A stretch of 25,518 nucleotides of DNA. Origin: a virus. The stretch is from the IMG/VR virus record IMGVR_UViG_3300008267_000988, positions 1-25,518 of that record; one strand, written 5' to 3'. Shown one piece after another: positions 4,376 through 24,019 of this stretch. The translations under genes were made by a program, and so were the position numbers. Position 1 is the first letter of the stretch, and every line of letters begins with the position of its first letter. The notes beneath the pieces are model-generated. The model had not been told where the DNA came from, searched no databases, and was given only the letters and a program-made list of their open reading frames with translations.

Positions 4376-5494
4376 ATGGCTACTACTTATAAAGATTTTT
4401 CATCTAACGATATAATAAATTCAAAAACATTATTATACGAAAATATACCGGTAACAGCATCTATTGTTTCAGGAACTTTGTATTCTGGTGCTAATATTAA
4501 ATCATATGCTCATGGAATGTATGAAAGTGTCTATGATTATAATTTTCAAAGTGCTTCTGCAAATCAATTATTTGACATGACAGCTGGTTTAATATCTGGC
4601 TCTCCAGCATACAGTACAGCTGATACAAATTTATCAATAAAAAATAATATTTATAATCAAATGGCACAAGTTTTAGTAGGCTATGATTATCAAGGTAATA
4701 TTCTTAAATTTGACGAAGATGGAGATACAGCAACAGATGCAGCTGAAGAAAAAATTAATTCTTGTTTTATATTAAATCTTAACAGACTTCTTGTTAAAGA
4801 TGAAATAAAAAAAGGAACATTCAACTTACAACTTGGCATACATCCAAGCGACATAACACCATATAGTAGCTCTTGTATCATATCTGATTTATCAGGTAGT
4901 GATAGTTATAGAGTTAATTCTCCAACTGGTGAATATGGTATTCTATACGCAAATGCATTTACCGGCACTAATACAGCTACAGTTAGACGACCAGCTGTTG
5001 GTTTATTGTTTTATCAAGCAGGAGTAGCAGTACTATCGACTGCAATTTTTGCAGCAAGCAGCTCTGCTAATCCAACATCAAGTATGTCTGCCAACACAAG
5101 AGGGCAACTTATAACCGCTTGTTCAATGTCTTCTGGCGATAGCTATTTTAATGTACAACAATTATTTAGAAGTGGATCTGTAGATAAAATAAATGCAGCA
5201 TTAAGACGTAGAGTGATGAATTTAAGCATAAATAATACTACTCAATTAAATTCTACAATACATTTTTGTAGAGTTGGAAACACTGAATTTAACTATAGCT
5301 CAAACCCAACGTATTTGTCTAGTAGCAAAATTATTGTCAAGGCAGATGAGCAGAACAATAATCCTGTTTCATATATAACCACAGTAGGTCTATATAGCTC
5401 CGACAATCAATTACTTGCAGTAGCAAAACTTTCTCAACCAATCAAAAAAACGCCAAGTAATGAAATGATTCTTAGAGTTAGATTAGATTATTAA
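4376..5494 (+). CDS. Virion structural protein, first of two tandem paralogues
   Basis: This 372-residue protein starts at an ATG with the good ribosome site AGGAAGG. It is a paralogue of the next gene. Both begin with F-S-x-N-D-I, both have a central I-x-K-G motif followed by alternating hydrophobic strands, and both end with NYSxNPTY, then a strand with LLA(V/I) and K, then PxKKT and a final basic strand ending in DY. The C-terminal block (roughly residues 300-372) is the best conserved. From memory this block is typical of a structural protein family in uncultured T4-like marine phages. The serine-, threonine- and alanine-rich composition fits a beta-sheet particle protein. The specific role is unknown. 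Confidence 0.72.
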   Translation: MATTYKDFSSNDIINSKTLLYENIPVTASIVSGTLYSGANIKSYAHGMYESVYDYNFQSASANQLFDMTAGLISGSPAYSTADTNLSIKNNIYNQMAQVLVGYDYQGNILKFDEDGDTATDAAEEKINSCFILNLNRLLVKDEIKKGTFNLQLGIHPSDITPYSSSCIISDLSGSDSYRVNSPTGEYGILYANAFTGTNTATVRRPAVGLLFYQAGVAVLSTAIFAASSSANPTSSMSANTRGQLITACSMSSGDSYFNVQQLFRSGSVDKINAALRRRVMNLSINNTTQLNSTIHFCRVGNTEFNYSSNPTYLSSSKIIVKADEQNNNPVSYITTVGLYSSDNQLLAVAKLSQPIKKTPSNEMILRVRLDY

Positions 5495-5503
5495 GATAAA
5501 AAA

Positions 5504-6628
5504 ATGTATTTTCAAGAATTTTCTAAAAATGACATATTTAAAAATATAATAAAAACTCACCCTAAGTATAATATATATTTTTGGTATAAAGATAGTAAAT
5601 TTAAATTTTATTTATTGAATAATAGCCAAAATACCGGCTCTTATTCAATAAATAATTTATTTCTTTATAGTCTTCCTTTAAATAATGCATATTCTGGAAG
5701 TATGCCAATAAGAAATAATATTAATGCATATAAATTAGACTATAATAATCAATCATTAATTTCATGGAATAGTTCAACGACTACTAGTAATGATCAATAC
5801 AGTATTAAATATCCACTTACAACATCAATTGATATTAAATATTATGAGTCTACTGCAGCAAAAGAAGATAATATATTCACAGGATCTTATGAATATAAAA
5901 ATAGACTTTATTCTTTAAAAAATGTTTTAAATAAAAAAGGCGCAAGTAATTTACACTTTTTATTTACATCTAGTATTGGAGATAAACAAAATCAAGAATT
6001 AACACTTATTTCTGTGCCATCTATATTTTATGGAAATACAATAAATAAAGGATCTATTAGTTTAAAAGTAAATATAACTGGCGCTCTTGCATCGGAATTA
6101 CAAGACACAAAATATAATGGAGAATTAATAGTAGTAAGCGGCTCTAACGTTGGCGATACAGCAGGTGTTGTTTTATACGATGAAGGATTTATAATGTTGA
6201 CTGGCAGTTGGCAAATAAATCCTTTATATTCATATAAATGGGGTGATATCTCTACTGTAAATAATACTAATATTAATTTACAGCTAGACTTTGAAGGCAC
6301 AAACATCACTCCAACAATGACTTTATTTGCTCATGCTCCTAAAGGAATGTTTAATTACTCAAATAACCCAACATATATTGAATATGGTCAAGATAAAACA
6401 CCAAGAACCGGTAGTTCGTTTTTTGAAGAAAAACAAGAATTAAAAATAAAAAATACTGTAAAATATGCTTATGATAATTTTTCTGGCAGTTTAGAAAAAC
6501 AAACTTTTATTTCTAAAATAGGAATTTTTGATGAAAATAAAAATTTATTAGCTATAGTAAAAACTTCTAAGCCAATGAAAAAAACTGAAAATAGAGATTT
6601 TACATTTAAGATTAAAATAGATTATTAA
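5504..6628 (+). CDS. Virion structural protein, second of two tandem paralogues
   Basis: This 374-residue protein follows its paralogue by 9 bases and is almost the same length (374 against 372). The shared C-terminal block contains FNYSNNPTY near residues 284-292 and the end pattern LLAIVKTSKPMKKT, finishing in KIKIDY. The N-terminal half differs much more and is rich in tyrosine, asparagine and lysine, so the copies have diverged to different partners or positions. The ribosome site before the ATG is weak (AAGATAAAAA), so translation probably depends on coupling to the gene before. A virion role follows from the family and context; nothing enzymatic is visible. Confidence 0.7.
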   Translation: MYFQEFSKNDIFKNIIKTHPKYNIYFWYKDSKFKFYLLNNSQNTGSYSINNLFLYSLPLNNAYSGSMPIRNNINAYKLDYNNQSLISWNSSTTTSNDQYSIKYPLTTSIDIKYYESTAAKEDNIFTGSYEYKNRLYSLKNVLNKKGASNLHFLFTSSIGDKQNQELTLISVPSIFYGNTINKGSISLKVNITGALASELQDTKYNGELIVVSGSNVGDTAGVVLYDEGFIMLTGSWQINPLYSYKWGDISTVNNTNINLQLDFEGTNITPTMTLFAHAPKGMFNYSNNPTYIEYGQDKTPRTGSSFFEEKQELKIKNTVKYAYDNFSGSLEKQTFISKIGIFDENKNLLAIVKTSKPMKKTENRDFTFKIKIDY

Positions 6629-6637
6629 GAGTATAAT

Positions 6638-7690
6638 ATGTCAGATAAAATACCAAATTATTTACCAAGCACACTTGAGACAATAGATTCTGCTTTATTA
6701 GAATATGTGCAAAATCTTAATTTATTTGTTACTACAGGTAACGGATTTGAAAAAGTTCCAGTAATTTGGAGTTCTGCAGAAAGATCATTTCAAATTAAAG
6801 ATAATAAAGAAATACGTGATAAAAATGGATCTTTAATAGCACCAATAATTTCAATTTCTAGAATCTCTGCCGTTAAAGATCCTAATAAAAAAGGTATTTT
6901 TCAAGCTGGTTTATCTCCAAATCAAGAAAGAATATTATATACGGAAGAATTAAATCAACAAAAAACTTCTAATTTTGCAAATGCTGATTCATTGAAAAAA
7001 ACAGGTCAAATTAATTTCAAAACTTCTAAAAATAATAAAAAAAAAGTTTATAAAAGTAAATATATACCTATTCCTATATACATAACTGTTGAATATAAAA
7101 TAAATATATTAACAAACTATCAATCACAAATGAATGAAATTATTCAACCATTCATGTCAAGAGTGGTTCAAAATTATTTTTTAATAGAAAAAGATGGCTA
7201 TCGATATGAATCTTTTATCAATCAAGAATTTAATCAAGAAAATATAAATTTAGACGAAAATGAAAGAAAATATAAATCCTCTATAACAATAAAAGTTTTA
7301 GGTTATTTAATTGGAGAAGGAAATAATCAAGAAAAACCACAAGTACTTACTAAAGAAAATCCTGTAGAAATTAAATTTCCTAAAGAAAATTTATTTTTAA
7401 TAGAAGAAGAAAAGCAAACTGCTAGAAAAAAACCTTCCAATCAAGGATCACAAGTATCTTCTTCGATATTAATGAAAAAAGTATTTTTAATAGGAGATGG
7501 AGTCAATTCAATATATAATATATCTCATAATTTAAATTCTAGAGATGTAATTATAACTGTTAGACAAAACGAATATCCATATACTTCTACAGATTTAATT
7601 AACATAGAACATACAGACTTAAATAATATATCCGTAGACATGTCGGAAATTATTGGTGTTGATTCTTACGCTGTAATAATTTTAGGATAA
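6638..7690 (+). CDS. Conserved virion protein with fibre-like C-terminal domain
   Basis: This 350-residue protein begins 9 bases after the preceding stop and has only a weak ribosome site. The N-terminal part carries VPVIWSSAERSFQIK near residues 41-55 and then a KDP motif, a pattern I recall from conserved proteins in T4-like marine phages. A middle domain has strands around YIPIPIYITVEYKI and a YQSQMNE helix. The last roughly 70 residues contain HNLNSRDVIITV and a terminal AVIILG, which resembles a small beta domain common at the C-termini of phage tail-fibre proteins. A tail or baseplate function is likely. The assignment rests on remembered patterns, not a search. Confidence 0.65.
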   Translation: MSDKIPNYLPSTLETIDSALLEYVQNLNLFVTTGNGFEKVPVIWSSAERSFQIKDNKEIRDKNGSLIAPIISISRISAVKDPNKKGIFQAGLSPNQERILYTEELNQQKTSNFANADSLKKTGQINFKTSKNNKKKVYKSKYIPIPIYITVEYKINILTNYQSQMNEIIQPFMSRVVQNYFLIEKDGYRYESFINQEFNQENINLDENERKYKSSITIKVLGYLIGEGNNQEKPQVLTKENPVEIKFPKENLFLIEEEKQTARKKPSNQGSQVSSSILMKKVFLIGDGVNSIYNISHNLNSRDVIITVRQNEYPYTSTDLINIEHTDLNNISVDMSEIIGVDSYAVIILG

Positions 7691-7701
7691 TCTTATTTAT
7701 A

Positions 7702-7719
7702 ATACTATTTATTACATAT
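7702..7719 (+). promoter_or_regulatory. Candidate late-promoter element ATACTATTTATTACATAT
   Basis: These 18 bases in the 57-base gap match 16 of 18 positions of 9302-9319, which lies before another fibre gene. AATACTATT (7701-7709) equals the downstream part of the T4 late promoter consensus as I remember it, although the upstream TATAAATA box is only partly kept. The next start codon is 28 bases after the element. Confidence 0.35.
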
Positions 7720-7747
7720 CAGCCTTTATGGCAAGGAAAAAACACAA

Positions 7748-8818
7748 GTGGCAAATCCTTGGAAAATTTTAACATATTTAACAGCTTCATCTGATGCACT
7801 TTTTCAATCAAATGTAACTATTAACGGAAACACAAATCTAGGTAACGCCTCGTCGGATATAGTTAGCATCACTGCTCAGGTAACTGCCTCTGCGGGTATC
7901 GAAGGTAGACTATACGGAACAGCATCTTATGCATTAGATTCAGATAAATTAGATGGCTATCATGCAAATGCTTTTGCCATTTTAGCTGGTAATAATACGT
8001 TTACTGGCCCAATTACTGCATCGGCTGGAATAGAAGGTAGATTATATGGCACTTCTTCTTATGCATTAGATGCCGATAAGCTAGATGGATATGACAGTTC
8101 TGCTTTTGCAAGATTGGCCGCTGATAATACTTTCACAGGTCAGCTCACTGCATCGAATGGCCTATATGTTAACGGCGGTTTAAAAGTAGATGGTGATTTA
8201 ACATATGTAAATACTACTAATCTTACCGTTACAGATAGAAAAATTACTATTGCAAATGGTGCGTCTAACGTAGATGGAGAAGGACCAGCGGGTGTATATG
8301 TTGGTAGCGATTCAACTTCCCTAGCAAGTATCTATGCAAGTGGTGCTACTGCTGGATGGCATGTATCTGGTGCTGCTGGATTATTTATTGCCGCTACAAG
8401 TAGCGCTGATATGACAAATATCGGTTCTGGTATAGTAGCTGGTGGAGAATTCAATGTTGAAGCTGCATTAAGAGCAATCAATAGCACTCTTGGAACTGCC
8501 ACCACTATATCAACCGTTAGAACTGAATATGATAAATTAAGATTTATTCAGACCGGCTCTTTGTCAACAGGTAATGCAGTTGTGTCATTAGCAAAAAATG
8601 CATTTGTTAATGCAAATAAAGATTTTGTCGTTGTCGATGTGATGGTTAGAGATAGTAATTCAAATCCTTGGACTAACGATTTAGTTTCTGTATATATGGC
8701 AAATGGTGCCACTTATGTTGATGTTACTATAGATGCACCTGGTATTGCTGGTGGTTCATGGGAATATAAATTAGTTGCAGTCAATGAGAATACAGGAAGT
8801 CTTGGCCTGATTGCTTAA
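7748..8818 (+). CDS. Tail-fibre / adhesin-like protein with tandem 44-residue repeats
   Basis: I chose the GTG start at 7748, with AAGGAAA about 10 bases upstream; an ATG at 7728 is out of frame. The product has 356 residues and no lysines in long stretches, being rich in A, G, S, T and N. Residues 46-89 and 90-133 are near-identical tandem repeats, each with ASAGIEGRLYG and a DKLDGY..AFA motif, the latter frequent in phage tail fibres. Residues about 150-215 (DRKITIANGAS, then GVYVGSDS) resemble fibre shaft domains. Residues 235-356 form a C-terminal beta domain shared with the gene at 9340. A host-contacting or fibre role is likely. A terminator follows directly. Confidence 0.75.
   Translation: MANPWKILTYLTASSDALFQSNVTINGNTNLGNASSDIVSITAQVTASAGIEGRLYGTASYALDSDKLDGYHANAFAILAGNNTFTGPITASAGIEGRLYGTSSYALDADKLDGYDSSAFARLAADNTFTGQLTASNGLYVNGGLKVDGDLTYVNTTNLTVTDRKITIANGASNVDGEGPAGVYVGSDSTSLASIYASGATAGWHVSGAAGLFIAATSSADMTNIGSGIVAGGEFNVEAALRAINSTLGTATTISTVRTEYDKLRFIQTGSLSTGNAVVSLAKNAFVNANKDFVVVDVMVRDSNSNPWTNDLVSVYMANGATYVDVTIDAPGIAGGSWEYKLVAVNENTGSLGLIA
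7883..8146 (+). repeat. Two in-frame tandem repeats of 132 bp
   Basis: Unit 1 is 7883-8014 and unit 2 is 8015-8146, both in the fibre reading frame. The protein units differ at only a few residues (for example TASYALDS against TSSYALDA), while the DNA differs mainly at third codon positions. A third, degenerate start (TASNGLYV) follows at 8147. This fits an old duplication kept by selection on the protein. Confidence 0.85.
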
Positions 8819-8834
8819 TTAATATAAAATATTA

Positions 8835-8843
8835 TGTTATACT
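8835..8843 (+). promoter_or_regulatory. Candidate extended -10 promoter TGTTATACT
   Basis: TG, one base, then TATACT (8838-8843) forms an extended -10 box. There is no good -35 box 17 bases upstream, which an extended -10 can tolerate. The expected start at about 8850 falls inside the 5' arm of the terminator at 8844-8875, so transcripts beginning here could not form the full stem. It would serve the two small genes at 8879 and 9042. Confidence 0.45.
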
Positions 8844-8875
8844 GAAAGGGCGGCTAAACCGCCCTTTCTTATTTT
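8844..8875 (+). terminator. Rho-independent terminator after the fibre gene
   Basis: The stem GAAAGGGCGG (8844-8853) pairs perfectly with CCGCCCTTTC (8859-8868) around the loop CTAAA, followed by TTATTTT. Ten base pairs with a GC-rich core in a very AT-rich context is a strong terminator. It separates the fibre gene from the two small genes. Confidence 0.9.
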
Positions 8876-8878
8876 AAA

Positions 8879-9052
8879 ATGAAAAGAAAAATAACTTATA
8901 TATTAAAAGATATAGATATCTTGATGAAATTATTATTACAAAATAGTACAGATTTTCAATCTCAAATAAAACTTGTAAAAGAACGAAATAATATTATAAA
9001 AGATATACAAAAAATTATTAAAAAATACGAAAAAATTATAAATGAAAAATAA
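8879..9052 (+). CDS. Small coiled-coil protein, 57 residues
   Basis: An ATG at 8879 opens a 57-residue frame ending in TAA at 9050-9052. The product is rich in lysine and isoleucine (MKRKITYILKDIDILMK, ending KKYEKIINEK) with heptad-like spacing, so it is probably a single long helix. It starts 4 bases after the terminator T-run and overlaps the next gene by 11 bases, the typical overlap of coupled phage genes. No Shine-Dalgarno sequence is visible, which lowers confidence. The function is unknown; a small early accessory gene placed behind its own promoter is my reading. Confidence 0.5.
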   Translation: MKRKITYILKDIDILMKLLLQNSTDFQSQIKLVKERNNIIKDIQKIIKKYEKIINEK

Positions 9053-9299
9053 ATTTAATTTTTTACAAATAGCTAATTGGCTTTATTTTTGCAGAGAAAA
9101 CTTGCAAAAAATAAAAAATAATATAAAAATTGTCAATGATCAAGAAACAAAGGAACAATTATTGCAAGAAATTAATAAATTAAACATACTTATTGATGTT
9201 TTAAATAAGAAAAAAACTATTCATGGTATAAGTCCAAAATTTTTAAAAAACTTGCAACAAATAAAGAAAGATTATGGAATAATAGATGAAACTGAATAA
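9042..9299 (+). CDS. Small helical protein of unknown function, 85 residues
   Basis: This 85-residue protein starts inside the last codons of the 57-residue gene. It has a tryptophan-containing N-terminus (FLQIANWLYFCRENL), then helices with heptad spacing (QEINKLNILIDVLNKKK) and an acidic end. There is no membrane segment or known motif. The two small genes sit between fibre genes whose products share a C-terminal domain, which suggests insertion of an accessory pair into the fibre cluster. No independent ribosome site is evident, so translational coupling is likely. The function is not known. Confidence 0.6.
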   Translation: MKNKFNFLQIANWLYFCRENLQKIKNNIKIVNDQETKEQLLQEINKLNILIDVLNKKKTIHGISPKFLKNLQQIKKDYGIIDETE

Positions 9300-9300
9300 A

Positions 9301-9319
9301 TATACTATTTATGATATAT
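9301..9319 (+). promoter_or_regulatory. Candidate late-promoter element TATACTATTTATGATATAT
   Basis: It matches 16 of 18 positions of the element at 7702-7719 and lies 20 bases before the GTCGGGAG ribosome site region and ATG at 9340. It contains ACTATTTA, also present before the gene at 3417. It could drive the second group of fibre genes after the terminator at 8844-8875. Confidence 0.38.
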
Positions 9320-9339
9320 AAAGTCGGGAGTTAATATTA

Positions 9340-9936
9340 ATGGGAACACGCCCCGTAAAAGTCTTACCAGATTTACAAACTAAAAAACAAATAATAAAAG
9401 TAGATGCAAGCGGAAATGAGCTTTTTAAAGTATCTGGTACATTAGATAATGGATATGTTAGCTCCTCTCTACCAATAAGTGCTTCAAGTGGTTTATTTGT
9501 AGCGTTGGGAACAACGACTTCAAGTTCTTTTAATAGCATAAATGTTCTAACAAGTTCAGTAGAAAGTTACAAAGTATACGATGTAAACCAAGCATTTCAC
9601 GCTGTTGATAATTCAATTACATCTATTGCAGCAGGCGCTAATTCCTATAAAAGATTAAGATATCAACTAACTGGCAATTTTGATTTAAACGGATCTGCAG
9701 ATATTTCTCTTCCATTGATTCAATACGCCGGTAGTGCTTTTCCTATATCTTCAATAGATTACATAAATGTTTCAGTGGCGATAAAAGAAAATAATTCTTG
9801 GTATAACGACATTGTTTCTATTAACCTAACATCTTCTGGTGGGTTTGTACACGTAATAATTGATGCTCCTGCTTTAAATAACACTAATCAATATAGGCTT
9901 TTGGCAGTTAATGAAAATCCAAACGATTATATATAG
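9340..9936 (+). CDS. Fibre-associated virion protein sharing a C-terminal domain
   Basis: This 198-residue protein has a clear ribosome site (GGGAG) before its ATG. The N-terminal part has a lysine-rich segment (LPDLQTKKQIIKVDASG) that may anchor to the particle. Residues about 80-193 form the same domain as residues 235-350 of the protein at 7748: Y-(D/K)-(K/R)-L-R, a TG turn, alternating strands, then W-x-ND-(L/I)-VS, IDAP, and a final (L/R)-L-(V/L)-AVNEN. The shared domain and short length suggest a tail-fibre accessory or tip protein. Virion location is inferred from homology within the window and from the neighbours. Confidence 0.68.
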   Translation: MGTRPVKVLPDLQTKKQIIKVDASGNELFKVSGTLDNGYVSSSLPISASSGLFVALGTTTSSSFNSINVLTSSVESYKVYDVNQAFHAVDNSITSIAAGANSYKRLRYQLTGNFDLNGSADISLPLIQYAGSAFPISSIDYINVSVAIKENNSWYNDIVSINLTSSGGFVHVIIDAPALNNTNQYRLLAVNENPNDYI

Positions 9937-9944
9937 GTAACAAA

Positions 9945-11231
9945 ATGTCATCAAACATACCATATTCAGAATTTTCAAGAATAAGAAACAGAACTGCAAA
10001 TATTGAAAATATCGAAGGTGGAACTAGTATCAATGGTACATTACGTGCTTATAGTACTATTTTAGGTCCAACTCCATATCCATTTTTAAACCCTTATGAA
10101 TATTTACAAATAAGTAATACAATTAATAATGATGCATTTATGACAGTTAGAAACACAAATGTTACTGGTATTTTAGGTGTTTTAAACGATAATGCATTTG
10201 TAGGAACAGTAAACAATAAAGACTTTCATTTTAGAATAAATAATAACGCTGTTGGAATTATTAAAAATACTGGGGATTTTGGTATAGGTAATTTAAATCC
10301 ACAAGTTTCTATGTCAATCGGTCCAACAACTGCTGCAGGAATAAATTCTAATGAAATGCTTCAATTGAATAATACATTAAATAATGATGTATATATGACC
10401 GTTAGAAGTAATGAAGCAATAGGATATTATGGCGCAAATGCAGACACGGTGTATATTGGTTCGTTTAGTAATGATCGTTTTGTTTTATCTTCAAATGGTA
10501 CAACAAGAGCATGTATAACAGCAAATGGTAATTTTGGAATCGGTACTAATTTTCTTTCTGCTGACGCATTATTACATGTCAATGGATCTGCTAAATTTGA
10601 AGGCACTTCTACATTTGGAACGACTATATTAAAAATAGATGTAGACAACCAAGTTGTTGGCATAAATACAAGTACCCCAGATGCATCTTATTGGCTAGAT
10701 GTAAATGGTGCATCAAAATTTAATGGCTCTATTCAACTTAACTCACATTTATATGTAGACAGTGGGTATGGTATAAGATTTGGAAATAGTGAAAACGCGT
10801 CTACATTAGATGATTACGAAGAAGGAACATGGACCCCATCATTTGCTACAGATGGTTCTGGATTAAATATTTCTTCTTATACTGCTCAAAGTGGTAGTTA
10901 TGTAAAAATAGGTAAAATGGTGTTACTGTCTGGAAAGATGGATATTGGTACTTTAGTTGCAACTGGATCTGGAAATGTTCTTATTTCAGGAATACCTGTT
11001 GCGGCAGCATCCGATACGACATATCAATACTATTATAGTGGACTTGTTACTGCATACATAAACATGGGATCATTGCCAGTTGGAGCTGCTGCACCTTATG
11101 AATATAGAGTTCAGACAACAAACGATTCTACTAAATTAGTTATAAGATATTCTAATAATAATACAATCCCAACGTCAGTTTTAAATAGTAATACAATGAT
11201 TTGGTTTAATATAGTCTATAAAACTACATAG
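9945..11231 (+). CDS. Tail-fibre / receptor-binding-type protein
   Basis: This 428-residue protein starts at ATG with ATAGGTAAC upstream. Residues 54-115 and 139-200 are two copies of one 62-residue unit, each running from LQ(I/L)xNT(I/L)NND through MTVR to a final GIG. A third GI(N/G) turn follows at 239-243. Near residue 288 begins LDDYEEGTWTPSF, a motif I know from many phage tail proteins, followed by a YTAQSGSYVKIG stretch leading into a C-terminal beta domain that could be the receptor-binding or trimerising end. Composition is rich in N, G, S and T without cysteine clusters. This is the best candidate for a distal fibre protein in the window. Confidence 0.75.
   Translation: MSSNIPYSEFSRIRNRTANIENIEGGTSINGTLRAYSTILGPTPYPFLNPYEYLQISNTINNDAFMTVRNTNVTGILGVLNDNAFVGTVNNKDFHFRINNNAVGIIKNTGDFGIGNLNPQVSMSIGPTTAAGINSNEMLQLNNTLNNDVYMTVRSNEAIGYYGANADTVYIGSFSNDRFVLSSNGTTRACITANGNFGIGTNFLSADALLHVNGSAKFEGTSTFGTTILKIDVDNQVVGINTSTPDASYWLDVNGASKFNGSIQLNSHLYVDSGYGIRFGNSENASTLDDYEEGTWTPSFATDGSGLNISSYTAQSGSYVKIGKMVLLSGKMDIGTLVATGSGNVLISGIPVAAASDTTYQYYYSGLVTAYINMGSLPVGAAAPYEYRVQTTNDSTKLVIRYSNNNTIPTSVLNSNTMIWFNIVYKTT
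10104..10544 (+). repeat. Two diverged 186-bp in-frame repeats in a fibre gene
   Basis: Copy 1 is about 10104-10289 and copy 2 about 10359-10544, separated by a 23-codon spacer. The aligned protein units share NNT(I/L)NND, MTVR and FGIG with many changes between, so the duplication is old. Such units usually form repeating shaft or knob domains in fibres. Confidence 0.65.
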
Positions 11232-11239
11232 GAAAACAC

Positions 11240-11521
11240 ATGCTAGAAGAAAAAAAAATAGTAGATAAAATTGAAATAATTGGAGATGTTATTCAAGTTA
11301 GAGAAAGAAATTGTATTTTAAAGAATGGTGTTGAGATAGCTTCTAGTTTTCATAGAATTTCTTTTTCTAAGCAAGACGAAATTACTATAAGTGATGAAAA
11401 AGTTTTAAGTATTGCAAAAGCTATCTGGCCAGATAAATTCTTAACAAATATAGAACCACAAGCTAATATCATTCCAGAACCAGAAGTTGTTCCAGAAATA
11501 ACTCCAGAAAGTTTAATATGA
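11240..11521 (+). CDS. Small conserved fibre-neighbour protein
   Basis: This 93-residue protein starts at ATG with ATAGGAAAA upstream. It has the pattern IQVRERNCILKNGVEIASSF, HR, then an AKAIWPDKF segment and a proline- and glutamate-rich tail (residues about 76-91). From memory, many tailed phages encode a similar short protein next to tail-fibre genes, with a beta-hairpin containing VRE, DG-V-E-I and F-H-R. Its last codons overlap the resolvase start (ATGA at 11518-11521), so expression is coupled. The function in the family is not settled to my knowledge; a fibre assembly or attachment role is plausible. Confidence 0.6.
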   Translation: MLEEKKIVDKIEIIGDVIQVRERNCILKNGVEIASSFHRISFSKQDEITISDEKVLSIAKAIWPDKFLTNIEPQANIIPEPEVVPEITPESLI

Positions 11522-12048
11522 TTTTAGGATTAGATATAAGTACTTCAATAACCGGTATTACAGTTCTTAGAGATGATGGATCAATTCTTCACAACGAAGC
11601 GATAGATTTAACATCTAAAAAACTAGACACAGTGTTTAAGAAAGCGTCAACTGTCAAAAATAGACTTACAGAATTAAGTCATCTTTTTGGTATTCGTAAG
11701 GTATATATTGAACAATCATTAAATGCATTTAGACCTGGATTGAGTAGCGCACAAGTAATATTGACGCTTGGTAAGTTTAATGGTATAGTGTCTTGGATTT
11801 GCCATGAAATATTTAACATGGAGCCGGAATATATTGGAGCCTCTACAGCAAGAAAAGCACTTGGTATTAAAGTAGAGAAAGGTCAAAATGCTAAGGAAGT
11901 CGTATTAAATAATATTTTAGCTCTTGAACCTTCCTTCACCGTGGAGTATACTGCTCACAACAACCCAAAAAAGGGTACATACGATCGCGCAGATTCGTAT
12001 GTAATTGCAAAAGCAGGTTACATCCAATGTCAGAAACAAAAAAAATAA
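11518..12048 (+). CDS. RuvC-like Holliday junction resolvase
   Basis: This 176-residue protein has the RNase H-fold pattern of RuvC-type nucleases: GLDIS with Asp6, VYIEQS with Glu65, and YDRADSYVIA with Asp156 and Asp159 on the last helix. These acidic residues would bind the two metal ions that cut branched DNA symmetrically. The length is close to bacterial RuvC. In T4 the same task is done by endonuclease VII (gp49), an unrelated fold, so this would be a functional replacement used to trim branches before packaging. The start overlaps the upstream stop by ATGA, and the primase starts 22 bases before its end. Other RNase H-fold nucleases remain possible. Confidence 0.75.
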   Translation: MILGLDISTSITGITVLRDDGSILHNEAIDLTSKKLDTVFKKASTVKNRLTELSHLFGIRKVYIEQSLNAFRPGLSSAQVILTLGKFNGIVSWICHEIFNMEPEYIGASTARKALGIKVEKGQNAKEVVLNNILALEPSFTVEYTAHNNPKKGTYDRADSYVIAKAGYIQCQKQKK

Positions 12049-12965
12049 ACATTCTTAATAAAATTCTAGGTGATTATTATCGTACAGGATCAGAATTATT
12101 ATTTAAATGTCCATTCTGTAATCACCATAAGAAAAAATTATCATTAAATATCAATAAAAATGCAGCTAAATGCTGGGTTTGTGACTGGTCTACGCCTAAT
12201 TTAACAAGAATAGTTAAGAGACTTGGCGGCTGGGATGACATTCAAGAGTGGAATAATTTATGTGGAATTATAGAAATTTCTGAATACGAAAAAATATTTT
12301 ACGAAGAAGATAAAATAGCTAGTGAGCATACAGTTCTATTACCAGAAGAATTTCAATCTCTGTGCAATAAAGACGTTTCTTTGACATCATTGGCCGCAAG
12401 AAGGTATCTAAAAGATAGAGGTATAACAAAAGAAGATATATTATATTGGAAAATAGGATATGCTGTATCTGGAGAATATTCTGGTAGAGTTATTGTACCT
12501 TCCTTTAACAATAATGGAGATGTAAACTATTACGTTGGTAGAACTTATGAAGATAATTGGAAAAAATATCTTAACCCAGACGTATCAAAAGATATTATTT
12601 TTAACGAATTATATATTGATTGGAGTAAAGATGTTACAATCGTTGAAGGCGTCTTTGATGCAATTAAAGCTAAAAATGCTATCCCTATTCTTGGTTCGAC
12701 GCTTAGAGAAAATTCCTCTCTGTTTAAGCACATCATTAAACACGACCCAGCTATCTACATTGGATTAGATCCAGACGCAGAAAAAAAAGCGGAGAAACTA
12801 ATAAAAGATTTACTTTATTATGATGCCGAGGTCTATAAAATAGATATTCCTCAAAATGTTGATATAGGTGATATGTCTCATGAAGATTTTTTAGTTCATA
12901 AAAATAACGCTAAACTAATTAAGGATACAGATTATTTTTTAATGAACAAAATTATGAGCATATAA
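12027..12965 (+). CDS. DNA primase with zinc finger and Toprim domain
   Basis: This 312-residue protein has an N-terminal zinc finger: Cys28-x2-Cys31, then Cys49-x2-Cys52, with histidines at 33-34, the type that recognises single-stranded template. A Toprim catalytic domain follows: Glu207 in TIVEGVFDAIK and the Asp248-x-Asp250 pair in IGLDPDAE. It would make RNA primers for lagging-strand synthesis, the role of gp61 in T4-like phages. A helicase domain is absent, so it must work with a separate helicase encoded elsewhere. The gene overlaps the resolvase by 22 bases and ends one base before the next ATG. Toprim proteins of other function are possible, but the zinc finger favours primase. Confidence 0.82.
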   Translation: MSETKKINILNKILGDYYRTGSELLFKCPFCNHHKKKLSLNINKNAAKCWVCDWSTPNLTRIVKRLGGWDDIQEWNNLCGIIEISEYEKIFYEEDKIASEHTVLLPEEFQSLCNKDVSLTSLAARRYLKDRGITKEDILYWKIGYAVSGEYSGRVIVPSFNNNGDVNYYVGRTYEDNWKKYLNPDVSKDIIFNELYIDWSKDVTIVEGVFDAIKAKNAIPILGSTLRENSSLFKHIIKHDPAIYIGLDPDAEKKAEKLIKDLLYYDAEVYKIDIPQNVDIGDMSHEDFLVHKNNAKLIKDTDYFLMNKIMSI

Positions 12966-13649: not shown

Positions 13650-14516
13650 ATGAAATTTGCACATATTGCAGATACACACATCTTAAATCTTAAGCGTCAC
13701 GATGAATTTAATGAAATATTTAATAAAATGTATGAGATTCTACGTCAAGAGAGAGTAGATTATATTATTCATTGTGGAGATATTGCTCACACTAAAACAC
13801 AAATCAGCCCAGAATTTGTTAAAATGGCTACAAATTTCTTACGTTCGCTATCAGAAATTGCACCAACATATGTAATTCTTGGAAATCATGATTGTAATCT
13901 TAAAAACGATAATCGAGAAGACGCAATTTCTCCTATTATTGATGCCATAAACTCTCCATATCTTACACTTTTTAAGTATTCACAAGAGTTCGATCTAAAT
14001 AAATTTGTAAATTTAAATATTTTGAGCCGTCTTGATGAAGAAAATTGGAAAAAACCTTCAAATGCACACAAAATTAATATTGCTCTATATCACGGTGCTA
14101 TTTCTGGTGTTAAAACCGATGGTGGTTATGTTTTAGAGAACGGTGAACATAATATTAAGGCACTAGAAGGTCACGATTATGCCTTTCTAGGCGATATTCA
14201 TATGAGTAATCAGATAGTTGATACTGAAGGCAGAGTGAGATATCCAGGCTCAACTGTTCAAGGTAATTTTGGCGAACACGACGATAAAGGATTTTTAATT
14301 TGGGATATTCAATCCAAGGATGAATTCACCTGCCAGCATTATTCTATTCCAAACCCTAAGCCATATCTTACTATTGACCTTGCGGATGACGGAACTCTGC
14401 CAGAAATTAATGTAAAAGACGGTGCAAGAGTCAGAATAATGGCGTGCTACGGAGATTGTCAAGAATCGTTTCAATCCAGAATCAGTAATGTTTGTAAACA
14501 AAGCTTTAGCAAGTAG
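13650..14516 (+). CDS. sbcD: Mre11/SbcD-like nuclease (gp47 type), C-terminus out of frame
   Basis: This 288-residue protein has a GGAG ribosome site 5 bases before the ATG. It carries the calcineurin-like phosphoesterase motifs of Mre11/SbcD: ADTH with Asp8 and His10, HCGD with Asp44, GNHD at 78-81, YHG with His148, and GDIH with Asp182 and His184, then YPGST near 198-202. With its Rad50-type partner it would process double-strand ends for recombination-dependent replication. T4 gp47 has 339 residues, so this frame is short. The missing C-terminal, Rad50-binding part appears in the next reading frame (residues 3 to about 73 there). The overlap is 29 bases and the last eight residues look like out-of-frame sequence. 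Confidence 0.88.
   Translation: MKFAHIADTHILNLKRHDEFNEIFNKMYEILRQERVDYIIHCGDIAHTKTQISPEFVKMATNFLRSLSEIAPTYVILGNHDCNLKNDNREDAISPIIDAINSPYLTLFKYSQEFDLNKFVNLNILSRLDEENWKKPSNAHKINIALYHGAISGVKTDGGYVLENGEHNIKALEGHDYAFLGDIHMSNQIVDTEGRVRYPGSTVQGNFGEHDDKGFLIWDIQSKDEFTCQHYSIPNPKPYLTIDLADDGTLPEINVKDGARVRIMACYGDCQESFQSRISNVCKQSFSK
14487..14496 (+). other. Possible +1 frameshift joint between Mre11-like and Rad50-like frames
   Basis: The frame of the Mre11-like gene reads AAT GTT here. Skipping T14493 gives GTA AAC and enters the Rad50-like frame, so the joined protein would read SNVVNKALASS and have 1032 residues. Removing one T from the TTT run at 14491-14493 would do the same. No Shine-Dalgarno sequence precedes the ATG at 14488. 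Confidence 0.5.
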
Positions 14517-16749
14517 CTCTGATGCAAAACACGTTTCGGAAATCGTTTCAAATAATGAAAATTTACGCGACCGTTCAGTTCAAGAAAAATTAATGCGTGA
14601 TTTCCTTAAAGATTACAAAGCAGAAGAGGAAGTTATGCAAAAAGTTATAAATCTTAATGATAGATATACTTCTATGGTTGAAGATGCCGATGAAACTAAA
14701 AGAAATGTTAAATGGAGACTAAAAAATCTTAAATGGGATAATCTTTTTAATTATGGAGAAGGTAATTCTATAAATTTTGATAATTTAAGAGGCATCATAG
14801 GAGTATTTGGTAAGAATTATAGTGGAAAATCATCAGTAGTTGATTCTTTATTATACACAATATATAATACAACATCTAAAAACAATCGTAAGAACCTAAA
14901 CGTAATCAATCAAGATAAAGATAAAGGAAACGGCAGTGTAGAGATAGAAATTGAAGGTGAAAATTACGAAATAAATAGAGTATCTGAAAAATATACTAAG
15001 AAACTAAAAGGAGTATTAACCACGGAGGCTAAAACCGATGTGGAATTTACTTCCGATGCTGGTTCACTTAATGGATTAGCGCGTAACGATACAGATAACA
15101 CTATTCGTAAGTACTTTGGTACTGTAGATGACTTCTTTTTGACTTCTATGGCAAGTCAATTTGGATATTTATCTTTTATTACCGAAGGATCAACTAAGCG
15201 CAAGGAAATATTGGCTAAATTTCTTGATTTAGAGATGTTTGAGAACAAATTTAAGCTAGCCAAGGATGAAAGCTCAGAACTAAAGGCACTTCTAAAGAAG
15301 TTAGAGGGTAACAACTTTGAGAAAGATATTTTAGCAACTGAACTTGAATTGTCTACGTTATCAAATGATATTCTAGGACATCAAAAAGGTTTAGAAGATA
15401 CAAAATTAAAAATAGATACTCTAACTGATGAGTTGAAACCAATATCAGAAAAAATTAAAGTTACACCATTGGATATTACTCAATATTTTAAACTTCACAA
15501 TAACTTAATTATGAGTAAAGAGAACCTTGAAACACTTAAAAACTCCAACGATGAGCTAAACGATGAGCATACAAAACTAGAAAATTTAATCATTAAATTA
15601 AACAATTATATTAATCTAGTTAATGAAAAAGAATTGTTAAAAAATGATGCAGAATTAGATAAAATGAGAGAACAGATGATTCCTCTTGAGAAAGAAATTA
15701 GTGCTCTTGAGACTAATATCAAGGGATACTCTCATAAACTAAAACTTCTAGAGGATATTCCCTGTGGCAATCAATTCACCAGTTGCAAGTTCATTAAGGA
15801 CGCCTTCCAAGCTAAAGAAAAAATGGCTGGAGATGAAGGAGTCCTTGCTAATGCTAGGGTCAATTATCAAAATATTAGCGATCATTATGATACTCTTGAT
15901 CAAAAAACTGCTGACGGACTCAATAAATTGGGTGAAGTCAAGAGGAAAAAGCGCGAAACAGAAGATAGAATGATGGCAGTAGAGTTAAAAATTGCCAAAA
16001 ATGAACTAGAAATTGAAAAACTTTCTAAATTGATTGAAGTAAATCAAGAAAAGTTTGATAAGCAAGAAAAAGATCGTGAAGAAATAGAAAAAATTGATGC
16101 TTTAGTCAAACAAAAAAATCAATTAGAGAGGAATTTAGCTCTAACAAAAAGTCAATACGAAATGTATGATCGTGAATTAAGAGAGATGTATAAAAAAGAA
16201 GGATCACTGAAGCAAAAAATTGAATCTCTTAATAAACAAAAAGAAGATCTTGAAAATACACGCAAAGAATACTCAGCCTATGATTTATATCTGAAATGTA
16301 TGCATCCAAGCGGTATAACTTATGAAATTATAAAAAATAAACTACCAGCTATCAACGAAGAAATAGCTAAAATACTTAACGGAGTGGTAAATTTTTCAAT
16401 TTATCTTGAAAACGATGATGATAAACTTGATATTATGATTAAACATGGAGATAATTCTGCAAGACCACTAGAAATGGGAAGCGGAGCAGAAAAAACTCTA
16501 GCTTCAACAGCTATTCGTCTAGCTTTAATCTCAGTTACGTCATTACCAGTTGGCGATATTTTTATTCTTGACGAACCGGGAACTGCACTAGACGAAGAAA
16601 ACATGTCTGGCTTTATTCGTATTCTAGAACTAATTAAGACATACTTCAAAACTGTGATTCTTATCTCACATCTTGATAGTCTTAAAGAATGCGTAGACAA
16701 ACAAATCGTAATCAACAGAAAGGATGGTTACGCATTCGTAGAGGAGTAA
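14488..16749 (+). CDS. sbcC: Rad50/SbcC-like ATPase (gp46 type) with an Mre11-like N-terminal extension
   Basis: The Rad50 body begins near residue 74 (VKWRLKNLKWDNLFNYG). It has the Walker A GKNYSGKSS at 108-116, a Q-loop glutamine at 224, long coiled coils at about 255-420 and 435-600, the signature MGSGAEKT at 663-670, Walker B IFILDEP at 691-697, a D-loop at 700-704 and His728. It would hold DNA ends for the Mre11 subunit. Residues 3-73 look like the Rad50-binding helices of an Mre11 C-terminus. The ATG at 14488 has no ribosome site; an ATG at 14635 has AGAGGA four bases upstream and is an alternative start. The coiled-coil tip has Cys426 and Cys433, not the usual CxxC zinc hook. Confidence 0.88.
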   Translation: MFVNKALASSSDAKHVSEIVSNNENLRDRSVQEKLMRDFLKDYKAEEEVMQKVINLNDRYTSMVEDADETKRNVKWRLKNLKWDNLFNYGEGNSINFDNLRGIIGVFGKNYSGKSSVVDSLLYTIYNTTSKNNRKNLNVINQDKDKGNGSVEIEIEGENYEINRVSEKYTKKLKGVLTTEAKTDVEFTSDAGSLNGLARNDTDNTIRKYFGTVDDFFLTSMASQFGYLSFITEGSTKRKEILAKFLDLEMFENKFKLAKDESSELKALLKKLEGNNFEKDILATELELSTLSNDILGHQKGLEDTKLKIDTLTDELKPISEKIKVTPLDITQYFKLHNNLIMSKENLETLKNSNDELNDEHTKLENLIIKLNNYINLVNEKELLKNDAELDKMREQMIPLEKEISALETNIKGYSHKLKLLEDIPCGNQFTSCKFIKDAFQAKEKMAGDEGVLANARVNYQNISDHYDTLDQKTADGLNKLGEVKRKKRETEDRMMAVELKIAKNELEIEKLSKLIEVNQEKFDKQEKDREEIEKIDALVKQKNQLERNLALTKSQYEMYDRELREMYKKEGSLKQKIESLNKQKEDLENTRKEYSAYDLYLKCMHPSGITYEIIKNKLPAINEEIAKILNGVVNFSIYLENDDDKLDIMIKHGDNSARPLEMGSGAEKTLASTAIRLALISVTSLPVGDIFILDEPGTALDEENMSGFIRILELIKTYFKTVILISHLDSLKECVDKQIVINRKDGYAFVEE

Positions 16750-20437: not shown

Positions 20438-22009
20438 ATGTCTTTAACGAAAGATGAAATAAAAAAAGAAATTTTAAAATGCGGTAAAGACCCCTCTTAT
20501 TTTTTGGATAATTATGCAAAAATTATTCACCAAGAAAGAGGGGTAATTCCATTTAGAACCTTTAAATTTCAAAAGCAATTATTAAAAGATTTTCATGATT
20601 TTAGATATAACGTTATATTAAAAGGCCGTCAGCTAGGCATTTCTACTATTGTCTCTGGATATGTAGCGTGGATGATGTTGTTTTATAAAGAAAAAAATAT
20701 TCTTGTAATGGCAACTAAACAAAATACTGCTATTGAAATCGTAGATAAAGTTAGAGATATGGTTGAGTCCGTACCTAATTTTTTAAAAATAGCTACAGTT
20801 AGTACAAACAATAGAACAAAATTTGAATTAAGTAATGGATCAAAAATTCAAGGCGTACCAACATCAAAAGATGCTGGTCGTGGTCAAGCATTATCATTAT
20901 TGATAGTTGATGAGGCCGCGTTCGTTGAAAACATGGATGATCTTTGGACTGGTTTATTGCCTACAATATCAACTGGAGGTCGCTGTATTGCTCTTTCAAC
21001 ACCGAATGGTGTTGGAAATTGGTTTCATAAAACTTACATAGATTCAGAAGCCGGCGCTAATAATTTTAAGCCTACAAGATTACCTTGGACAGTACATCCA
21101 GAATATACTCAAGAATGGTTTGACAACATAACAAAAAACATGTCAAAACGTGAAATTGCACAAGAGTTTGAGTGCAATTTTAATGCATCGGGTGAAACTG
21201 TTATTCACGGAGACGATATTATAAGGCTAAAGGCAGTAGTAAAAGAACCAGAATATAAAACTTGGGTAGATAGAAACTATCATGTTTGGAAACCATATCA
21301 ATCTGGAGGTAGCTATCTGTTAGTAGCTGACGTTGCTAGAGGAGATGGTAAAGATTTTTCTGTTTTTCATGTAATTGACGTTAAGGAAATGGAGCAAGTA
21401 GCTGAATATCAAGGAAAGATAGACCCTGATACATTCGCTAAATTAATTAATGATGTTGGCATGGAATTCGGAGGATGCATGGTAGTTGTTGAAAATAATA
21501 ATATTGGATATTCAGTAATAACTAAATTAGTTGATATGAGATATCCTAATATTTATTATTCTACAAAAGCTTCTCACGACTTTGTTGATTCAAGTATGGC
21601 ACAATATACTAGCAATAGCGTGCCTGGATTTACAACAACTCAAAAAACAAGACCACTAATTGTTGCAAAATTAGATGAATTTGTAAGAAATAAGATAATT
21701 AAAATTAATTCATTGAGAACTATTAATGAATTAGATACATTTTTATGGATTAATGGAAGACCAGAGGCTCAAAGAGGATATAACGATGACTTGGTTATGT
21801 CTCTAGCTATTGCTTGCTGGGTAAGAGATACTGCAATAATAAACAATGAAAGATCTATGGAATACTCAAAAGCCATACTATCATCAATGGGAAAAACACA
21901 AAATTACCTTAACACATCTATTGATGGTATGAGACAATATGAAGTTACTCAAAAAATGGAACAATTAAAACAAATTTATACAGAACATGTATGGCTTTTA
22001 AAGGGATAA
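20438..22009 (+). CDS. terL: Large terminase subunit (gp17 type)
   Basis: This 523-residue packaging motor has an ATPase domain and a nuclease domain. The P-loop region is KGRQLGIST (residues 62-70), Walker B is LLIVDEA with Asp158-Glu159, and the coupling motif is STPNG at 187-191. The nuclease acidic residues are Asp298 and Asp303 in VADVARGDGKD, Glu352 in VVVENNNIG, and Asp450-Asp451 in YNDDLVMSLAIA. It would cut concatemers and pump DNA into the prohead through the portal encoded next. T4 gp17 has 610 residues, so this is a shorter version. The usual P-loop lysine is replaced by Ile68; Lys62 or Arg64 may take over its role. The ribosome site is weak (GAAGAG). Confidence 0.96.
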   Translation: MSLTKDEIKKEILKCGKDPSYFLDNYAKIIHQERGVIPFRTFKFQKQLLKDFHDFRYNVILKGRQLGISTIVSGYVAWMMLFYKEKNILVMATKQNTAIEIVDKVRDMVESVPNFLKIATVSTNNRTKFELSNGSKIQGVPTSKDAGRGQALSLLIVDEAAFVENMDDLWTGLLPTISTGGRCIALSTPNGVGNWFHKTYIDSEAGANNFKPTRLPWTVHPEYTQEWFDNITKNMSKREIAQEFECNFNASGETVIHGDDIIRLKAVVKEPEYKTWVDRNYHVWKPYQSGGSYLLVADVARGDGKDFSVFHVIDVKEMEQVAEYQGKIDPDTFAKLINDVGMEFGGCMVVVENNNIGYSVITKLVDMRYPNIYYSTKASHDFVDSSMAQYTSNSVPGFTTTQKTRPLIVAKLDEFVRNKIIKINSLRTINELDTFLWINGRPEAQRGYNDDLVMSLAIACWVRDTAIINNERSMEYSKAILSSMGKTQNYLNTSIDGMRQYEVTQKMEQLKQIYTEHVWLLKG

Positions 22010-22012
22010 AAA

Positions 22013-24019
22013 ATGGCAAACGGACCTAATAATATAAGAGATCCAAATTTAACTAGAAATACAGTTCAAAGTAGAGATGATCTTTCTAAAAAAAATCCTA
22101 GAAATCAAGAATCACCTTTATATGTTGCTCTTACTAGATTATTTTCTGGCCCTCTGTCATCTTATAAAGAACAATCACAAATTAGATATAAAAGAAGAGA
22201 TTTAGATCGTTTTAAGTTTACTTCTGCTAGTGGTAAATCATTTAAAAAGAAAAGCTACAATCCCTTTGATGCCATTCAAAGCAATATTATGGCAAATCAA
22301 AGTCGTGCAGAGCGCTATTCAGATTTTGATCAAATGGAATTTACTCCCGAAATTGCTTCTGCGTTAGATATTTACGCAGATGAGATGACTACTAGTAATG
22401 AATTTAGACCTATTTTAGGTATTGAATGTAAAAATGAAGAAATAAAAAATATATTATATACATTATATTATAAAACTCTAAATTTACCACAAAATTTGTA
22501 TAGCTGGTGTCGTACAATGTGTAAGTTTGGAGATTTATTTTTATATCTTGATGTAGATGAAGAGCTTGGTATTAAAAGTGTACTTGGTTTACCGTCACCT
22601 GAAGTAGAAAAACTTATGGGTGAGGATAAAACAAATGCAAACTATATTCAATTTCAATGGAATACTGCTGGATTGACATTTGAAAATTGGCAAGTTGCAC
22701 ATTTTTGTATAAAGGGTCAAGATAAATATACTCCATATGGTACATCTATTCTTGAACCAGCTCGTCGTATCTGGCGTCAATTAAATTTGATGGAAGATGC
22801 AATGATGGCATACCGTATTGTCAGAAGCCCAGAACGTAGAGTTTTTTATATAGACACTGGCAATATTGCACCAGCTGATGTTGAGCAATATATGCAAAAA
22901 ATAATTACTCAAATGAAGCGTAATCAAATTGTTGATCCAACGACTGGTCGTGTTGATCTTCGCTATAATCCAATGAGTATTGATGAAGATTATTATATAC
23001 CAGTTCGTGGTCAAACAAGCGGAACAAAAATTGAAAACCTTCCAGGTGGTCAATTTACAAGCGCGATTGAAGATGTTAAGTATCTTAGAGATAAATTATT
23101 TTCTGCTCTAAAAATTCCACAAGCATATCTTGCAAGAGGCGAAGGCCAAGCAGAAGATAAAACAATGTTAGCACAAAAAGATATGCGTTTTGCTAAAACT
23201 ATTCAACGGCTTCAAGCTACATTAATTGATGAATTACAAAAAATTGGTATGATTCACTTATATACTCTAGGGTTTAGAAATGATGATTTAATAAAATTTA
23301 GAATAAAATTAAATAATCCTTCTAAGTTAGCAGAAATGCAAGAACTTGAGCATTTTAAAGCTCAATTAGAAATTGCAGGTCTAGCAAAAGAGCAAGGATT
23401 TAGTAAAAGATGGATATTTGAAGGTATATTTAAAATGGATGATAGAGAATTTCTTAGAATTCAAAGAGATTTATTCTATGATGCTTCGTTTACTAAATCT
23501 CTTGAAGCTGCTGGTAATGAAGCAGCAGAATCTTCAGGTGGCGCAACAGGTACATCTGCTATTGGAGGCGAGCCATCAGCAGAAACAACTCCTCAATCTG
23601 GAGAAACACCAGCAGCGGGAGGCGAAGAAAAGTCAGCCGAGGCACCACCTCCACCTGGAGAGCCAGGAAATCCGTTACTAGCGGCACCAGCTCGTCGTGA
23701 AGATATATTTAATGTTAAGCCTCCATATTTAACTGCTGGCTCTAAAGGTAAATGGTATAAGCCAGTAGCTGCTCCAAATTATTCTGGTGGTTCAAGAAGC
23801 AATAGCATTAAAGCTATGGCGGGTATGAGAAGCAATAATGCTTTTAAAGGCACTGGTCTAAGTACACTTGCCGCCGGTATTGCAAATGAATCAAAAGATT
23901 TTGATGTATTTGAACAGGATGAACAACTACTTAATGATGTACAACAAAAATTAGATTCAATGAGTAAATTTTTAACTAAAAAGAAAAAAGTAATTGGAGA
24001 GAATAAAAATGAATCATAA
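22013..24019 (+). CDS. Portal protein (gp20 type) with long C-terminal tail
   Basis: This 668-residue protein follows TerL by three bases. Family hallmarks include FTPEIASALDIYADE at 110-124, PYGTSILEPARRIW at 241-254, RSPERRVFYIDTGN at 271-284, and YYIPVRGQTSGTKIENLPGG at about 327-346. The portal forms the ring at the head vertex through which the terminase pumps DNA and to which the neck attaches. T4 gp20 has 524 residues. The extra length lies after about residue 490: a linker rich in A, G, S, E and P (roughly 500-560) and a charged C-terminus. Upstream of its ATG is AAGGGAT. The last 11 bases overlap the next gene. Confidence 0.95.
   Translation: MANGPNNIRDPNLTRNTVQSRDDLSKKNPRNQESPLYVALTRLFSGPLSSYKEQSQIRYKRRDLDRFKFTSASGKSFKKKSYNPFDAIQSNIMANQSRAERYSDFDQMEFTPEIASALDIYADEMTTSNEFRPILGIECKNEEIKNILYTLYYKTLNLPQNLYSWCRTMCKFGDLFLYLDVDEELGIKSVLGLPSPEVEKLMGEDKTNANYIQFQWNTAGLTFENWQVAHFCIKGQDKYTPYGTSILEPARRIWRQLNLMEDAMMAYRIVRSPERRVFYIDTGNIAPADVEQYMQKIITQMKRNQIVDPTTGRVDLRYNPMSIDEDYYIPVRGQTSGTKIENLPGGQFTSAIEDVKYLRDKLFSALKIPQAYLARGEGQAEDKTMLAQKDMRFAKTIQRLQATLIDELQKIGMIHLYTLGFRNDDLIKFRIKLNNPSKLAEMQELEHFKAQLEIAGLAKEQGFSKRWIFEGIFKMDDREFLRIQRDLFYDASFTKSLEAAGNEAAESSGGATGTSAIGGEPSAETTPQSGETPAAGGEEKSAEAPPPPGEPGNPLLAAPARREDIFNVKPPYLTAGSKGKWYKPVAAPNYSGGSRSNSIKAMAGMRSNNAFKGTGLSTLAAGIANESKDFDVFEQDEQLLNDVQQKLDSMSKFLTKKKKVIGENKNES

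Follow-up and report, generated by a model that had tools for sequence, protein, structure and literature searches.

The two overlapping reading frames at 13650-14516 and 14488-16749 of the window, a stretch of 25,518 bases that by itself makes up a whole linear virus record, are best read as one joined Mre11-Rad50 gene broken by a 32-base deletion, representing neither a programmed frameshift nor a natural division of the gene (probability of about 0.92). The coordinates and lengths given in the initial annotation for the Mre11-like frame (288 aa) and the Rad50-like frame (753 aa) hold, and the overlap of the frames spans 14440-14516. The Rad50-like ORF matches AAA_23 (PF13476, E 2e-10), and the Rad50 body begins, as had been claimed, at about residue 74 of its 753 residues. 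The presence around the locus of genes encoding a T4-like terminase large subunit (20438-22009), a portal protein (22013-24019), a RuvC-like resolvase (11518-12048), and a primase (12027-12965) identifies the window as a tailed phage, and its other genes show no obvious breaks. The features of the locus are as follows.

13650..14441, + strand: Mre11 (SbcD) nuclease domain, with the initial portion of the fusion's cap (motifs; Metallophos PF00149 match of the Mre11-like ORF, E 1e-15)
13671 (DTH), 13776 (GDIAH), 13881 (GNHD), 14088 (YHG), and 14190 (GDIH), + strand: Mre11 motifs
14441..14442: site of the missing 32 nt, which are present in all 8 close relatives compared; placement +/- 1-2 bases
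14442..14508, + strand: codons read in the Rad50 frame, homologs of the final helix and strand of the Mre11 cap (RATEIVKNRFNPESVMFVNKA); some of them precede ATG 14488
14442..14516, + strand: out-of-frame tail of the 288-aa Mre11 ORF (ACYGDC...FSK, stop TAG 14514), homology absent in this frame
14488..16749, + strand: Rad50 (SbcC)-like ORF, 753 aa, with the Rad50 head from about 14707
14572..14688, + strand: two helices (L006 residues 319-357), putative Rad50-binding helix-loop-helix of Mre11, now in the Rad50 frame, assignment suggested by domain order
14625..14637, + strand: AGAGGA (14625-14630) and ATG 14635, inside the frame, not kept as a start in relatives
14809-14832 (Walker A), 15763-15786 (CX6C hook), 16474-16494 (signature), and 16564-16596 (Walker B), + strand: Rad50 motifs

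Alignment with the nearest relatives shows 32 nt missing from the window at 14441/14442, with gap-free flanks on both sides; among all the gaps in the gene, this is the sole one common to all 8 relatives compared. Homology in the Mre11 frame runs only to 14441 (RVRIM); at 14442 (RATEIVKNRFNPESV) it passes into the Rad50 frame, 46 nt before ATG 14488 is reached, while the final 24-25 residues of the 288-aa ORF are out of frame and have no counterpart in relatives. The nearest fused relative, L006, has 1043 aa and the joined form of the window 1032, a shortfall matching the 11 codons that the deletion affects; the 735-aa remainder contains no further stop. The initial annotation had obtained the same 1032 residues by skipping T14493, the last base of a TTT run (14491-14493) that is present as stated, and its arithmetic is correct. 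Since homology switches frame at 14441/14442, T14493 is not where the frames part and a slip there is unneeded; a join at T14493 would insert approximately 17 out-of-frame residues and is ruled out by the alignment. Nor is the change an indel of one base in the TTT run, where a recent indel had been proposed; it is the 32-nt deletion.

The window phage belongs to a large group of aquatic viruses in which the DNA-end repair enzymes Mre11 and Rad50 form a single joined protein. Screening virus contigs with the Rad50-like protein as the query yielded 79 loci, and once the phage records Mel-JY01, LR756501, and LR756508 were added, 77 virus loci were found to hold both the Mre11 and the Rad50 parts. 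The two parts share one open frame in 76 of them; the 77th, L003, carries a foreign ORF within Mre11, farther upstream, yet still has the Mre11 C-terminus and Rad50 in one frame, so that the joint lies in a single open frame in 77/77. A single frame also crosses the joint in three bacterial bins (L087-L089, 3/3). Altogether, the other loci are continuous across the joint in 80/80 cases, the window alone being broken there, which upholds the suspicion that both frames stem from a single protein. Relatives with separate, complete gp47 and gp46 genes were not seen among these 80 loci. The intact fused gene usually comprises about 1,040-1,065 codons.

Insertions and neighboring mobile elements were observed in several of these loci. 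In L077 (3159-7259), the Mre11 active site of the fused protein holds an intein (PF14890 match), inserted directly behind GNHD. The Rad50 Walker A of L074 (5320-5970; GKNYSGK/C) is interrupted by an apparent split intein: its first half, about 29 residues long, stops at 5423, and a second ORF, starting at 5589, encodes an intein C-terminal region (TIGR01443) and then the remainder of Rad50. The ORF interrupting Mre11 in L003 (6665-7579 of the 484-kb phage LR756508) carries a TnsA-like endonuclease domain and is situated just past the GDIH motif, with the remainder of the fusion at 7578-10166. A GIY-YIG/NUMOD3 homing endonuclease-like ORF is located immediately 3′ of the fused gene in L072 (4164-4883). 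Finally, L089 (3956-6049) is a phage fusion gene that sits in the 2.8-Mb 'chromosome' of a bacterial bin (WOR-3) and is interrupted by a stretch of N, indicating that this bin includes a misjoined phage contig.

In the phylogenetic tree, the window nests inside the fused clade as the sister to L006 and L077 (support 100/93), with L038 outside this group. Given this nesting, continuity was lost secondarily and recently, or in assembly. The differences from L006 and L077 within 14442-14516 fall almost only at third positions of the Rad50 frame (1, 0, and 12 at the three codon positions against L077), a bias indicating that, over most of its history, this segment was translated in that frame and that the loss of the frame is late compared with the divergence from L006 and L077, unless it exists in the contig alone. 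A chimera of two phages joined at the gap was rejected, as L006 is the nearest or near-nearest sequence on each side of it and the identity to each relative is even across it. The deletion junction and its flank were sought in other virus contigs and not found, and these contigs held no second copy of the window phage. We give about equal odds to a real deletion and to an amplification or assembly artefact.

To place the missing segment, a structure model of the intact L006 fusion was made (mean pLDDT 84.7, pTM 0.47). Only per-domain Foldseek matches were used, the whole-model TM scores being low because of the long coiled coil. In this model, residues 1-295 form the nuclease and capping domain and match SbcD (7dog, Z 25.0, 275 residues), a weak linker occupies 297-309, two helices span 319-333 and 337-357, and Rad50 begins at residue 365 and matches 7yzo chain D (Z 30.5, 348 residues). 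Mapped onto this model, the deletion takes out L006 residues 265-275, which comprise the end of a strand, a loop, and the first part of the final cap helix. The profile alignment with T4 gp47, whose length of 339 aa had been given correctly, reaches residue 332 and hence the region of the helix pair. By its position and this alignment, the pair is taken as the putative Rad50-binding helix-loop-helix of Mre11; as the lost codons come from the cap, this element now sits in the Rad50 frame. The capping domain and the helix-loop-helix between nuclease and ATPase are present in the window except for the 11 deleted codons. The earlier proposal that residues 3-73 of the second ORF are the Rad50-binding end of Mre11 is therefore supported: the modeled helix-loop-helix and the gp47 alignment mark them as an Mre11 end, with about the first 20 belonging to the cap.

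The characteristic motifs are present in both halves. The Mre11 metal-binding phosphoesterase motifs I-V are all present, with D8, H10, D44, N79, H80, H148, and H184 all invariant, and in GDIH (14190-14201) an Asp replaces His206 of PfMre11 in the window as well as in 54/54 relatives. On the Rad50 side, we found Walker A, the signature, Walker B, the coiled coil, and the cysteine hook, with the motifs occurring in 54/54 relatives. The hook is of the CX6C type (CGNQFTSC, 15763-15786), a form shared by 48 of the 54 relatives, with CX7C in 4.

A real split in the lineage of the window would give two working proteins, a 288-aa nuclease and a Rad50 whose N-terminus bears the end of the Mre11 cap and the Rad50-binding helices, with Rad50 starting either at ATG 14488, coupled to the stop at 14516, or at ATG 14635. 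In favor of this reading, the Rad50 frame is otherwise free of stops, an overlap links ATG 14488 with the upstream stop, and AGAGGA does precede ATG 14635, as had been pointed out. However, ATG 14488 has no Shine-Dalgarno sequence, again as reported, and neither start is conserved: the 14488 site is a start codon in 1/54 relatives and the 14635 site an ATG in 13/54, mostly without a Shine-Dalgarno sequence, so that the suggestion of Rad50 starting at 14635 after a real split is not sustained. We found no evidence for an internal start in the family among the 54 relatives. Starting at 14488 or 14635 would also omit half of the cap or half of the helix pair, and the codons in 14442-14487 would be untranslated, yet the constraint on the Rad50 frame is kept there. 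We consider such a split quite improbable; if true, it would mean that the fusion had been naturally undone at a new cut point, leaving a nuclease on its own and a Rad50 with the binding domain of its partner as an N-terminal extension.

A programmed +1 frameshift joining both frames, which the initial annotation had also raised, is highly improbable. The overlap at 14440-14516 does run in the needed direction, but neither an overlap nor a shift occurs here in any relative, all of which are in one frame, and a prfB-like arrangement of stop plus Shine-Dalgarno is absent; the shared gap accounts for the frame change and the 11-codon shortfall without recoding. The chance that gp47 and gp46 were ancestrally separate genes, as in T4, which has two with small ORFs between them, is close to nil: the window nests within fused sequences and its Rad50 frame opens with Mre11 cap residues, and the tree and the alignment refute this origin.

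We favor the broken fusion: this tailed phage carries a single-chain Mre11-Rad50 (SbcD-SbcC) gene that belongs to the fusion type of PMC3175470. The intact chain comprises the Mre11 nuclease, the capping domain, the Rad50-binding helix-loop-helix, a short linker, and a Rad50 ATPase whose two halves flank a coiled coil bearing a cysteine hook. Judging from the function of the family, it is expected to form a dimer and, like T4 gp46/gp47, to act on DNA ends in recombination-dependent replication and repair. The 32-nt deletion at 14441/14442, within the capping domain, shifts the frame, so that translation from 13650 ends at 14516 and the rest of the gene lies open in the +1 frame without a good start; the deletion may be recent, or a product of amplification or assembly. 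The fusion in the relatives, the deletion, and the change of frame are established observations; that the window copy has lost its function is our inference. The main value of the analysis lies in a correction: what looked like gene splitting or recoding comes down to a deletion, and the gene affected belongs to a fused family. A single-chain fusion fixes a 1:1 ratio of the Mre11 and Rad50 subunits, and its intact copies could serve structural work on Mre11-Rad50.

Mre11/Rad50 fusions were described in 2011 by Yoshida, Claverie, and Ogata in Mimivirus (R555), plasmids, bacteria, eukaryotes, and a Bacillus phage (PMC3175470). According to these authors, close relatives of the R555-type fusions are abundant in aquatic viral size fractions and metagenomes and are probably phage-borne, the fusion was confirmed in only a few metagenome sequences, and an Asp takes the place of His206 (PMC3175470). 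To this, our comparison adds a diverse set of tailed phages in which the fusion is the normal state. Beyond that paper, a search of the literature on phage Mel-JY01 and on single-polypeptide Mre11-Rad50 of phages found nothing, and a review of jumbo phages (PMC7824862) does not discuss the fusion. As far as the published description of R555 allows the comparison, the window fits a broken copy of an R555-type member: its family shares with R555 the Mre11-Rad50 order, the cap and helix-loop-helix in between, the Asp for PfMre11 His206, the abundance in aquatic viral metagenomes, and the probable phage origin, but differs in that the window copy is cut by the 32-nt deletion and its clade has a CX6C hook. 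In Microcystis phage Mel-JY01, the 'AAA domain containing protein' WWT39521.1 similarly holds both domains in one frame of about 1,066 aa, has the GDIH motif, and adjoins a primase gene; in contrast to the window, it is intact, has the hook CKHC, and shows an identity of only about 28% in Rad50 and 40% in Mre11. T4 gp47/gp46 are the same pair of enzymes, with the same presumed role in recombination-dependent replication, but they are encoded by two genes with two small ORFs between them, gp47 having GHFH and gp46 the hook CPTC. The hook is CXXC in T4 gp46, Mel-JY01, and LR756501, compared to CX6C in the window.
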